From positions 1 through 64,000 of the forward strand of contig NZ_LBDA02000053.1 in NCBI RefSeq assembly GCF_000980885.2: 64,000 nt of DNA, given 5' to 3'. The position numbers and the translations under genes are program-made. The DNA comes from Streptomyces malaysiense. GTDB lineage: Bacteria > Actinomycetota > Actinomycetes > Streptomycetales > Streptomycetaceae. Shown here piece after piece: positions 8,990-29,029 of this stretch. The notes below the pieces were generated by a model. It was not told the DNA's origin. It did no database searches and saw only the letters and a program-made list of their open reading frames with translations. The number at the start of each line of letters is the position of its first letter. The stretch's first letter is position 1.

Positions 8990-9131
8990 GTAAGGGCTCC
9001 CTGAAGGTGCGACGGCTGTCGGCTATGCGGTGCCCCAACGCCGGGCGGGAGGGCCGCACGGCGCCAGACTAACCGGGAGTGGGCTTGGATGGGCACAGGC
9101 GTCCACGAGCCGGACGCGGATGGCCCCTGCG

Positions 9132-26069: not shown

Positions 26070-26867
26070 TCAGGCCGCCTTGGCCCGTCCCTTGCGGTAG
26101 AGCACGGCGCCCGCGATCAACGCGCCCGCCCCGGCCGGCAGCGCCAGACCCAGCGGCAGCTCACTGCCGGTGTGGGCGAGTTCGCCGGTGGTCGGGGACG
26201 CCGGGGAGCCCTGCGGCACGTGCACCTGCTGGGCCGGCGGGGTCGCCGGGGTGCCCGGCTGGTGCGGCGTACCCGGCTGGGTCGGCGTGCCCGGGTTGGT
26301 AGGCGTGCCGGGCTGAGTCGGCGTACCCGGCTGAGTCGGGTGGCCAGGGTGACCCGGGTGACCGGGGTGACCGGGGTGACCGGGGTGGCCAGGGTGACTC
26401 GGCGGGCTGGTGTGGCCGCCGCCCGGCGGGGTGCCGTGCGTCCCGCCGCCGTTGGAGCAGTGGTTGCCCGTGGCGGGGTTGCCCACGCCGACGACGTCGA
26501 CGCTGTTGCCGCACGCGTTCACCGGGACGTCGATCGGCACCTGGACGGTGTTGCCCGATCCCACGCCCGGCGAGCCGGAGGTGTGTCCGCCGGCGTGCGA
26601 GCCGCCGGAGCCGCCGTGGCCTCCGCCGGTGTTGGCGCAGGCGTTGCCCATCGCCGGATTGAGCAGCCCGACGACGTTGACGGTGTTGCCGCAGACGTTC
26701 ACCGGAATGTGGACCGGCACCTGCACGGTGTTGCCGGACACGACGCCGGGCGAGCCGGTGGCGGCGCCGGACGCGCCCGCGTCCGCGTGTGCCATACCGG
26801 TCGCGGCGGCGAGTACCCCGGTCGCCGCCGCCATGGTCATCAGACCTTTACGGGTTCCTTGTCGCAT
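26070..26867 (-). CDS. chpC: Long chaplin ChpC-like, sortase-anchored
   Basis: A 265-residue secreted surface protein for aerial hyphae and spores. A signal peptide spans about residues 1-28 (ends AHADA). Two chaplin domains follow: about 35-78 (SPGVVSGNTVQVPVHIPVNV with Cys pair in VCGN and NACAN) and about 98-138 (Cys pair in ACGN and NHCSN). Next is a low-complexity linker of His-Pro-Gly and Thr-Gln-Pro-Gly-Thr-Pro repeats, then the sorting signal LAHTG (about 231-235), a hydrophobic span and a basic tail (YRKGRAKAA). LAXTG signals are processed by class E sortase in Streptomyces. Chaplins form amyloid films that lower surface tension. It lies downstream of chpH, as chpC lies next to chpH in S. 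coelicolor. Confidence 0.92.
   Translation of the reverse strand: MRQGTRKGLMTMAAATGVLAAATGMAHADAGASGAATGSPGVVSGNTVQVPVHIPVNVCGNTVNVVGLLNPAMGNACANTGGGHGGSGGSHAGGHTSGSPGVGSGNTVQVPIDVPVNACGNSVDVVGVGNPATGNHCSNGGGTHGTPPGGGHTSPPSHPGHPGHPGHPGHPGHPGHPTQPGTPTQPGTPTNPGTPTQPGTPHQPGTPATPPAQQVHVPQGSPASPTTGELAHTGSELPLGLALPAGAGALIAGAVLYRKGRAKAA
26251..26397. repeat. Tandem repeats coding for the chpC linker
   Basis: From 26341 to 26397 a 9-bp unit (GTGACCGGG and variants, coding for His-Pro-Gly) is repeated about six times. From 26251 to 26340 an 18-bp unit (coding for Thr-Gln-Pro-Gly-Thr-Pro) is repeated about five times. Such arrays change copy number between strains and lengthen or shorten the cell-wall spacer. 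Confidence 0.85.
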
Positions 26868-26917: not shown

Positions 26918-26956
26918 GTCGGCCTCGGAGCGCATGGCGCACGCTCCGAGGCCGAC
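26918..26956 (-). terminator. Terminator of chpH
   Basis: Perfect 15-bp arms GTCGGCCTCGGAGCG (26918-26932) and CGCTCCGAGGCCGAC (26942-26956) with a nine-base loop, 51-89 bp past the chpH stop and upstream of chpC. Confidence 0.8.
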
Positions 26957-27006: not shown

Positions 27007-27240
27007 TCAGCTGTTGACGCAGGCGTTGCCGAAGGCGGGGTTCAGGATCCCGATCACGTCGATCGTGTCGCCGCACACGCTCACCGGAACGTGCACGGGC
27101 ACCTGGATGACGTTGCCGGAGACGACACCCGGGGAGTGCAGGGCGGCACCCTGGGCACCGGAGTCGGCGACGGCCAGGCCCGCGCCCGCGAGAACCAGCC
27201 CACCGGTGGCAGCCGCGGCAGCGACGACCTTCTTGATCAT
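27007..27240 (-). CDS. chpH: Short chaplin ChpH-like
   Basis: A 77-residue secreted hydrophobic protein with one chaplin domain. The signal peptide is about residues 1-26 (MIKKVVAAAAATGG, ends AVADS). The mature part is about 51 residues: SPGVVSGNVIQVPVHVPVSV, Cys in VCGDTIDVIG, and a second Cys in GNACVNS at the C-terminus. These two cysteines and the amyloid-prone core are conserved in short chaplins, which assemble at the air-water interface. The ATG at 27240 follows GAGGAGG; an upstream in-frame ATG at 27288 lies outside the conserved protein and lacks a ribosome binding site. The leader folds over its own ribosome binding site (27245-27302). Confidence 0.94.
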   Translation of the reverse strand: MIKKVVAAAAATGGLVLAGAGLAVADSGAQGAALHSPGVVSGNVIQVPVHVPVSVCGDTIDVIGILNPAFGNACVNS

Positions 27241-27244
27241 TGTT

Positions 27245-27302
27245 CCTCCTCGTTGGCAAAGCGACCCCAAGGTGCGGGGTCGCATCACCTGTAACGAGGA
27301 GG
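27245..27302 (-). promoter_or_regulatory. chpH leader: nested helices that cover the ribosome binding site
   Basis: In the chpH RNA sense, CCTCCTCGTT (27302-27293) is perfectly complementary to AACGAGGAGG (27254-27245), which contains the chpH Shine-Dalgarno sequence four bases before ATG. Enclosed between them is a perfect 8-bp hairpin, GCGACCCC (27283-27276) with GGGGTCGC (27268-27261) around GCACCTT. The enclosed joints are ACAGGTGAT and TTTGCC. This looks like a translational control element (thermosensor, ligand or protein-binding leader). A simpler reading of the inner hairpin is the terminator of the upstream M20 peptidase gene. Confidence 0.65.
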
Positions 27303-27403
27303 GAGTAATGGAGCTACGAGCTTATGGTCGCATTCACCCTTCTCAGTCGATCCCGAACGCCCGGCCGAAATCGCGGCGTCCGGGCCCGAACCGCCGCGGC
27401 CGC

Positions 27404-28729
27404 TCAGGACGCGTCGATGAACCGGTCGAGCACCCGCACGCCGAACCGGAGGCCGTCCACCGGCACCCGCTCGTCCACGCCGTGGAACATGCCGGCGAAG
27501 TCCAGCTCCGGCGGCAGCTTCAGCGGTGCGAAACCGAAGCCGCGGATGCCGAGGTCGTCGAAGGACTTGGCGTCGGTGCCGCCGGAGAGCATGTACGGGA
27601 CCGCCTTGGCGATGGGGTCCTCGGCGAGCAGCGCGGACTGCATGGCCTCGACCAGCGCCCCGTCGAAGCTGGTCTCCACGGCCTTGTCGGCGTGCACGTC
27701 CTCGCGGCGCACACGCGGGCCGAGCAGCCGGTCCAGGTCGCCGAGGAACTCGTCCTCGTACCCGGGCAGGAAGCGGCCGTCGATGTGCGCGGTGGCCTCG
27801 CCGGGGATGACGTTGACCTTGTAGCCGGCGTTCAGCTGCGTCGGGTTGGCGGTGTTGCTCAGGGTCGCGCCGATCAGTTTGGCGATGCCGCCGAGCTTGG
27901 CGACGGTCGCCTCCATGTCCTCGGGGTCCAGCTCCGTGCCGAGCGCGTCGCCCAGTTCGTCGAGGAAGGCCCGGGTGGTCTTGGTGACCCGCACCGGGAA
28001 CCTGTGGCGGCCGACGCGGGCGACCGCCTCGGACAGCTCGGTGATGGCGTTGTCGCGGTGGATCATGGAGCCGTGCCCGGCGGTGCCGGCCACGGTGAGC
28101 TTCATCCAGTGCATGCCCTTCTCGGCCGTCTGGATCAGATAGAGCCGCCGCCGCTCGTTCACGGTGAAGGAGAAGCCACCGACCTCGCTGATCGCCTCGG
28201 TGACGCCCTCGAACAGCTCGGGGTGGTGATCGACCAGGTGGCGGGCGCCGAAGGTGCCGCCCGCCTCCTCGTCGGCGAGGAAGGCGACGACGATGTCGCG
28301 CGGGGGCCGCCGGCCGCCGCGCAGCCGGTCGCGCACGACCGCGAGGGTCATGGCGTCCATGTCCTTCATGTCGACCGCCCCGCGCCCCCACACGCACCCG
28401 TCGGCGATCTCGCCGGAGAAGGGGTGGTGGGTCCAGTCGTCGGCGTTGGCCGGTACGACGTCCAGGTGGCCGTGGATCAGCAGGGCGGGCCGGGAGGGGT
28501 CCTCCCCCGCGATGCGGGCCACGGTGGAGGCGCGGCCGGGGTGGGACTCGTGGATCTCGGGCTCCAGGCCGACCTCCGCCAGCTTCTCGGCGACCCACTC
28601 GGCGGCCTGCCGCTCGCCGGGCCCGGAGTGGTCGCCGTAGTTGCTGGTGTCGAACCGGATCAGGTCGCGGCAGAGGTCCACGACCTCGTCCTCACCGGTG
28701 ACGCCCTGGGTCGTGTCCTTCTCGCTCAC
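27404..28729 (-). CDS. M20-family metallopeptidase
   Basis: A 441-residue zinc-dependent M20 (ArgE/DapE/ACY1/carboxypeptidase G2-type) hydrolase. Metal ligands: His and Asp in LLIHGHLDVVPA, the bridging Asp in GRGAVDMKDMDA, the catalytic Glu pair in FLADEEAGGTFGA, and the final His in MFHGVDERVPVDGL. A dimerisation domain interrupts the catalytic domain at about residues 195-330. Likely cleaves a dipeptide, N-acyl amino acid or related amide; substrate unknown. It lies upstream of chpH on the same strand with a 163-bp gap. Start GTG at 28729. Confidence 0.93.
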   Translation of the reverse strand: MSEKDTTQGVTGEDEVVDLCRDLIRFDTSNYGDHSGPGERQAAEWVAEKLAEVGLEPEIHESHPGRASTVARIAGEDPSRPALLIHGHLDVVPANADDWTHHPFSGEIADGCVWGRGAVDMKDMDAMTLAVVRDRLRGGRRPPRDIVVAFLADEEAGGTFGARHLVDHHPELFEGVTEAISEVGGFSFTVNERRRLYLIQTAEKGMHWMKLTVAGTAGHGSMIHRDNAITELSEAVARVGRHRFPVRVTKTTRAFLDELGDALGTELDPEDMEATVAKLGGIAKLIGATLSNTANPTQLNAGYKVNVIPGEATAHIDGRFLPGYEDEFLGDLDRLLGPRVRREDVHADKAVETSFDGALVEAMQSALLAEDPIAKAVPYMLSGGTDAKSFDDLGIRGFGFAPLKLPPELDFAGMFHGVDERVPVDGLRFGVRVLDRFIDAS

Positions 28730-28941: not shown

Positions 28942-29029
28942 GTCCGGGTGGCGGAATGGCAGACGCGCTAGCTTGAGGTGCTAGTGCCCTTTATCGGGCG
29001 TGGGGGTTCAAGTCCCCCCTCGGACACCA
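28942..29029 (+). tRNA. tRNA-Leu (anticodon GAG), CCA encoded
   Basis: Class II tRNA. The acceptor stem GTCCGGG (28942-28948) pairs with CTCGGAC (29019-29025), with one G-T pair; discriminator A and encoded CCA at 29027-29029. The anticodon stem CTAGC / GCTAG encloses loop TTGAGGT, giving anticodon GAG (reads CUC and CUU). The long variable arm TGCCC-TTTA-TCGGGCG and T arm GGGGG-TTCAAGT-CCCCC are typical of tRNA-Leu. Confidence 0.97.

Follow-up and report, generated by a model that had tools for sequence, protein, structure and literature searches.

The chaplin gene chpH of Streptomyces malaysiense is preceded by a sigma-BldN-type promoter and by a conserved RNA stem which, if transcription starts as predicted, stands at the very 5' end of the mRNA. 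The reading that we favour on balance is that chaplin mRNAs combine such a promoter with a 5'-terminal stem-loop, which most likely slows their decay. We are far surer of the promoter and of the stem's conservation as RNA than of what the hairpin does; protection of the 5' end is the most likely role, and on this function our confidence is about even. The window referred to below is the whole stretch of DNA analysed, 64,000 nucleotides in length.

The chpH leader and its nested helices

The chpH gene encodes a 77-aa chaplin (PF03777, E 4.6e-28) and lies between an M20 peptidase gene upstream (27404-28729) and a larger second chaplin gene downstream (26070-26867), which we take to occupy the chpC position. 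The original prediction held that the chpH mRNA folds over its own ribosome binding site by a 10-bp helix enclosing an 8-bp hairpin. Reading of the minus strand confirmed that both helices are present at the following positions, and that the 3' strand of the longer one contains the Shine-Dalgarno sequence.

27007 to 27240, minus strand: chpH, 77 aa, stop codon within these coordinates (PF03777 and the list of open reading frames)
27240 to 27238, minus strand: ATG start codon of chpH (sequence reading)
27245 to 27254, minus strand: 3' arm of the outer helix, AACGAGGAGG, that is AACG followed by the Shine-Dalgarno sequence AGGAGG at 27250-27245 (sequence reading)
27261 to 27283, minus strand: inner stem-loop, GCGACCCC-loop-GGGGTCGC, 8 bp with a 7-nt loop, 27283-27276 pairing with 27268-27261 (conservation and covariation)
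27293 to 27302, minus strand: 5' arm of the outer helix, CCTCCTCGTT, 10 bp (the last six promoter spacer bases plus CGTT)

The RNA covering both helices is very stable (folding energy -41.1 kcal/mol, z -6.7, matched by none of 200 shuffles), and in this long RNA of the window a third stretch, GGTGA with TTGCC, which the original prediction leaves out, connects the inner and the outer helix. The original argument that two such nested helices are unlikely by chance holds; a 10-bp repeat taken by itself is common in the window. Perfect 10-bp inverted repeats with loops of 10-60 nt number 45 in the window against 16 expected from Markov resampling, and a 10-bp repeat enclosing a perfect 8-bp repeat occurs once, at chpH, against four in total over 20 resamplings (about 0.2 each), which makes chance a poor explanation for the nested helices.

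Rfam at gathering score gave two matches in the window and none in the chpH leader, namely a Streptomyces-metH RNA (RF03076) at 8987-9118 on the minus strand (80.6 bits) and a tRNA gene at 28942-29026 on the plus strand (51.9 bits). A perfect 15-bp inverted repeat with a 9-nt loop was observed at 26918-26956 on the minus strand, between chpH and the next chaplin gene. In none of the five loci read (L005, L227, L228, L230 and L231) did the larger chaplin gene adjoining chpH have a sigma-BldN-like promoter, and it is probably cotranscribed with chpH; the 15-bp repeat may therefore be an attenuator, a processing site or a 3' protector which sets the ratio of the two chaplin products.

The promoter and the 5' arm of the outer helix

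The 5' arm of the outer helix overlaps a conserved promoter, a point missing from the original prediction, and the following elements were assigned upstream of the inner stem-loop.

27285 to 27287, minus strand: predicted transcription start, 6-8 nt after CGTT (promoter position and the usual spacing of ECF promoters)
27291 to 27296, minus strand: -10 box CGTTAC, 16 nt after the -35 box, its CGTT being the inner end of the outer-helix 5' arm
27313 to 27318, minus strand: -35 box CGTAGC of the sigma-BldN-type promoter (pattern conserved in chpH-like loci)
27334 to 27349, minus strand: imperfect palindrome ending in GGGTGA, a probable BldM site, alternatively an MtrA site (conserved spacing and motif fit)

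Two sets of loci were compared. The first came from a scan of genome contigs (at least 80 loci, among the matches listed), from which L085 was removed for its different leader and to which the window was added; its record titles were nearly all Streptomyces. For the second, 121 genomes belonging to 17 genera of the window's family were searched, of which 108 matched; it comprises 89 loci, one from each of 89 genomes besides the window's, 18 genomes being left out. The first set (matches listed) and the second gave 169 loci, among which near-duplicates remain, and thinning at 80% identity gave 54 representatives. L181, L193 and L196, whose assigned start codon lies too far downstream to include the Shine-Dalgarno sequence, were excluded from the outer-helix counts. 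L176 and L182, doubtful orthologues, were excluded from the alignment A1, the position test and the spacer-shuffle test, and L167 and L112 were excluded from A1 for their long leaders, so that A1 holds 50 of the 54 representatives. The chpH leaders of L112 and L167 are 12-14 bases longer than usual from the -10 box to the start codon.

The full chpH promoter, CGTAGC-N16-CGTTAC, spans 27318-27291. All 80 leaders of the first set (matches listed) carried xxTA(G/T)C, a spacer of 16 (77 leaders) or 17 bases (3 leaders) and xGTT, and the commonest hexamers among these 80 were CGTAGC (74) and CGTTAC (67). Over both sets the pattern [CAG][GA]T[ATG]NC-N16/17-CGTT was present in 165 of the 169 loci, with a spacer of 16 in 153 and of 17 in 12, the loci without it being L177, L186, L189 and L194; a T immediately before CGTT was conserved in 162 of the 165. 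A start 6-8 nt after CGTT is the usual spacing for ECF sigma promoters, and transcription of chpH is thus predicted to begin at 27285-27287. Because the outer 5' arm is promoter DNA, this predicted start lies downstream of the arm, and indeed of 27293, so the main mRNA would be without it and the arm CCTCCTCGTT is expected in read-through RNA only.

The pattern CGTARC-N16/17-CGTT alone is unspecific, being found at 17 places in the window's genome, one of them chpH, against 5 for the reversed control. A control promoter class, GGAAY-N18/19-GTTG, gave 233 matches in total and was kept out of the analysis. Another of the 17 places (L104) has CGTAAC-N16-CGTTGA, 125 nt upstream of an ORF presumably encoding BldM. 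This agrees exactly with the published sigma-BldN motif CGTAACN16CGTTGA, which was derived from bldM (PMC2375139). The chpH promoter and the sigma-BldN promoter bldM p1 have CGTA(A/G)C-N16-CGTT in common and differ in their hexamers, which are CGTAGC/CGTTAC in chpH and CGTAAC/CGTTGA in bldM p1. Chaplin and rodlin genes have been described as direct sigma-BldN targets (PMC12096830, and also PMC4125116 and PMC5069765), and we infer from the sequence that sigma-BldN uses the chpH promoter. No mapped transcription start of chpH was found in the open-licence literature searched, including term searches of PMC4895711 (chpH) and PMC4681348 (SCO1675, chp).

The spacing of the upstream palindrome is also conserved, GTGA being placed exactly 19 nt ahead of the -35 hexamer in 158 of the 165 loci, where nearness to GTGA had helped to choose among promoter candidates. 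At least nine of 14 positions fitted the BldM motif TCACcCgnncGgGTGA, taken from PMC4125116, in 54 of 82 and 59 of 76 GTGA loci, against 1.2% of all windows in the same leaders, with four of the 14 positions matching by construction. As compared with this BldM homodimer site, the left half of the palindrome is degenerate and the GTGA of the right half is fixed by the choice of loci. The palindrome is a probable candidate for a BldM site, and a similar motif was reported for an S. griseus regulon that includes chaplins (PMC8914203). MtrA is the alternative candidate binder; chpH transcripts were reported to be barely detectable without MtrA, whose site is a direct repeat (PMC5650626). If the palindrome is a BldM site, sigma-BldN, BldM and chpH form a feed-forward loop.

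The outer helix was scored with its 5' arm anchored at CGTT and its 3' arm at the Shine-Dalgarno sequence. All ten pairs were formed in 6 of 162 loci and at least nine in 66, the corresponding numbers among the 54 representatives being 4 and 16, and in 30 of the 162 the initial C of the -10 box formed its C-G pair. In several loci the spacer ends in CGGGGT or CAGTGT, and there the outer pairing is mostly lost. Covariation is near-absent: in A1, 74.5% of the cells were paired (shuffles 74.3%, with 60 of 500 at least equal), 2 cells had changes in both partners (equalled in 24 of 500) and the covariation score was 0.115 (shuffles 0.109, with 12 of 500 at least equal). The cells other than Watson-Crick pairs included 37 GU and 29 AC. 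The best-kept parts of the helix are needed regardless, CGTT by the promoter and AGGAGG by the ribosome. The outer helix appears to be largely a by-product, in which the pyrimidine-rich spacer and the -10 box complement the Shine-Dalgarno sequence by chance. For the middle helix GGTGA/TTGCC in A1, 49.4% of the cells were paired (shuffles 46.2%, with 18 of 500 at least equal), the covariation score was 0.183 against 0.154 (53 of 500), and some loci, judged by eye, have a longer pairing in this region.

In the predicted folds, whether the ribosome binding site is hidden depends on where the RNA starts. From the predicted start, the Shine-Dalgarno sequence of the window's RNA is 0.47 unpaired. 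In the first set (80 leaders, matches listed) it was less than 0.3 unpaired in 77 leaders when the RNA began at the -35 box and in 3 when it began at the predicted start, with medians of 0.01 and 0.5, respectively. The proposal that the leader folds over its own ribosome binding site to control translation is therefore unsupported for the main mRNA, since the 5' arm is promoter DNA and the Shine-Dalgarno sequence is about half unpaired from the predicted start. The original prediction had named two findings that would speak against it, a start downstream of 27293 and missing covariation in the 10-bp helix; the predicted start agrees with the first, and the near-absent covariation agrees with the second. 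The stability of the long fold and the rarity of nested repeats would suit a translational switch in the main mRNA, i.e., a thermosensor, a riboswitch or the target of a protein or small RNA, working by the 10-bp helix over the Shine-Dalgarno sequence. We consider such a switch very improbable, as its 5' arm overlaps the promoter pattern of 165 of the 169 loci, its covariation is next to none, the leader has no Rfam match at gathering score and the Shine-Dalgarno sequence is roughly half accessible when the RNA starts as predicted. The chpH long RNA is like RNA thermosensors and riboswitches that sequester the Shine-Dalgarno sequence in having this sequence paired, and unlike them in that the pairing arm is expected to be missing from the main mRNA; this class was rejected on the 3 of 80 leaders (matches listed) counted from the predicted start and on a sequestering helix which hardly covaries.

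The hiding of the Shine-Dalgarno sequence in longer RNAs raises another reading, in the manner of phage T4 gene e (lysozyme): RNA reading through from the M20 gene would fold both arms and be silent, RNA born at the promoter would lack the arm and be translated, and the chaplin would be made from developmental transcripts only. The anatomy is shared: the late promoter of T4 gene e is part of the 5' strand (PMC3014915) of a hairpin covering the ribosome binding site in longer transcripts only, and in chpH the -10 box (27296-27291) overlaps the arm (27302-27293). Apart from the 77 leaders that hide the Shine-Dalgarno sequence from the -35 box, the real spacers hid it better than their own shuffles, at a mean quantile of 0.15 in 20 leaders (Streptomyces-type by eye) and 0.33 in the other 32, quantiles which are not independent since the leaders are related. 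The covariation score of the outer helix slightly above its shuffles also suits silencing, and the stretch between the M20 gene and chpH folds no better than shuffles (z -0.08) and gave no terminator-like sites in a consensus scan, which would miss terminators without a U-run. However, shuffled spacers likewise hide the Shine-Dalgarno sequence (mean 0.23 unpaired), so composition accounts for much of the hiding, and the outer pairing of chpH, with its few complete helices, rarely formed C-G pair and two doubly changed cells, is not maintained base by base. Silencing of read-through RNA at chpH would be by analogy to T4 gene e, and we regard it as unlikely. A combined reading, to which we give a rather low probability, assigns three jobs to one DNA stretch, namely a sigma-BldN promoter, an anti-Shine-Dalgarno strand silencing read-through RNA and, in its downstream part, a protective 5' stem-loop. 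If true, the cell would have its own version of the T4 gene e switch, in which a surface amyloid is limited to developmental transcripts and the 5' stem-loop is a general mark of chaplin mRNAs.

The inner stem-loop in chpH and other chaplin leaders

The compensatory changes expected of a conserved RNA, next to none in the 10-bp helix, were found in the inner hairpin. In A1, 92.7% of the cells of the 8-bp stem were paired against 85.5% in shuffles, 36 cells were changed on both sides against 11.9, and the covariation score was 0.398 against 0.262, none of 500 shuffles being as high in any of the three measures. When the partner strand was slid by 1-3 columns, 32-48% of the cells were paired and the covariation score was at most 0.132. 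Two weaker measures fell within the shuffles, namely six pairs with changes in both partners (23 of 500) and 13 further kinds of pair (157 of 500). RNAalifold on the 50 leaders, with both outer arms included, returned the inner hairpin as the only structure. The cells of the stem other than Watson-Crick pairs included 39 GU and 6 AC, an excess of GU which argues that the stem acts as RNA and not as a DNA operator. A dyad at 27261-27283 bound by a repressor at the transcription start would be well served by the set distance from the -10 box, but the arm sequences vary widely among loci and chaplins, which together with the GU excess makes a poor fit to a single DNA-binding protein. The operator was rejected on the GU excess, and we hold it to be improbable.

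The hairpin also keeps a fixed position. In the position test, a stem of at least 6 bp with at most one GU and starting 8-12 nt (0-based) after CGTT was counted, and it was found in 41 of 52 chpH representatives, against an average of 2.0 in mononucleotide shuffles and 0-2 in windows elsewhere. For chaplins other than chpH, two strict searches gave matches in 3 of 61 genomes each, and a looser search over 12 genomes was used instead, of which 62 of 74 matches were read. A promoter score of at least 13.5, chosen without use of the hairpin, was reached by 39 of the 62, and the 23 below it stood outside the position test. The stem was at the same place in 33 of these 39 leaders (shuffles averaging 1.6 with a maximum of 5, windows elsewhere 0-4); the stem sequences vary from chaplin to chaplin. 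It was missing in 11 of the 52 chpH representatives and 6 of the 39 other leaders. In the bldM leader (L104), a single case, no stem was found at the chaplin position despite the exact BldN motif, a hint that the stem is particular to chaplin mRNAs and is not shared by every sigma-BldN transcript.

Folding strength is less uniform than position: z was below -2 in 34 of the 54 representatives and no better than -2 in 20, and the promoter-born leader of the window alone had a z of -1.4 (16 of 200 shuffles as good). In some loci the pairing continues upstream and takes in bases 3-7 after CGTT, as would suit transcription that begins earlier or a function in longer RNA. If the start is as predicted, no more than about 4 nt separate the stem from the mRNA 5' end.

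A doubt raised earlier, that the inner hairpin is only the terminator of the M20 gene, can be discounted on its set distance from the chpH promoter, its conservation and its covariation. It is a strong hairpin downstream of the M20 gene, as a terminator would be, but it is not followed by a U-run (GGGGTCGCTTTGCC; only UUU, then GCC), the consensus scan does not list it, it lies past the chpH promoter at a constant place relative to that promoter, and other chaplins also have one. The terminator was rejected on the missing U-run and the promoter-locked position, and we find it scarcely credible.

A possible protective role at the 5' end

Under the reading favoured here, a protective stem-loop at the 5' end, sigma-BldN polymerase, probably aided by BldM at the palindrome, would initiate chpH near 27285-27287. 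The mRNA would then consist of 2-4 unpaired bases, a hairpin of 8-9 bp, about 10 mostly open bases, the Shine-Dalgarno sequence and the start codon. The hairpin would most likely shield the 5' end against pyrophosphohydrolase and against RNase J and RNase E, which depend on the 5' end, and a long-lived message would in turn yield an abundant structural protein. RppH and RNase E depend on single-stranded 5' ends, which is why 5' structures stabilise mRNA, and ompA, papA and aprE are known 5'-stabilised cases (PMC3997798); pyrophosphohydrolases are said to be blocked by terminal stem-loops (PMC4681348). The chpH leader is like those of E. coli ompA and papA and B. subtilis aprE in having a stem-loop near the 5' end (here predicted), an abundant protein and a free Shine-Dalgarno sequence after the stem. 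Unlike them, the chpH-type stem-loop is tied to the promoter of one developmental sigma factor and occurs on a paralogous family with varied stem sequences, and its stabilising effect would be by analogy.

A strong increase of chaplin and rodlin transcripts was reported for S. venezuelae mutants in RNase III and in RNase J, and the authors assign it to the BldD regulon as an indirect effect (PMC12096830). This rise fits post-transcriptional control without singling out the hairpin. It also counts against protection in its strictest form, as a full block of RNase J by the hairpin would lead one to expect no rise of chaplin mRNA in the RNase J mutant. The original remark of being unaware of such an element in chaplins agrees with the literature searched, as no description of a 5' stem-loop on chaplin mRNAs was found among the open-licence papers listed, and an earlier mention is possible in other literature.

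The chpH leader also illustrates that a promoter read from sequence alone can mimic an RNA switch which blocks the Shine-Dalgarno sequence. Chaplins are major surface proteins of aerial growth in Streptomyces, and their control in the chaplin literature cited here is transcriptional, through sigma-BldN, BldM, MtrA and BldD. If the protective reading is true, a promoter-locked and covarying 5' stem-loop would add an RNA-level layer to chaplin control. It would connect, in a way open to testing, with the increase in chaplin transcripts reported when RNase J or RNase III is mutated, and could be used at the 5' end of mRNAs that are meant to be stable in Streptomyces.
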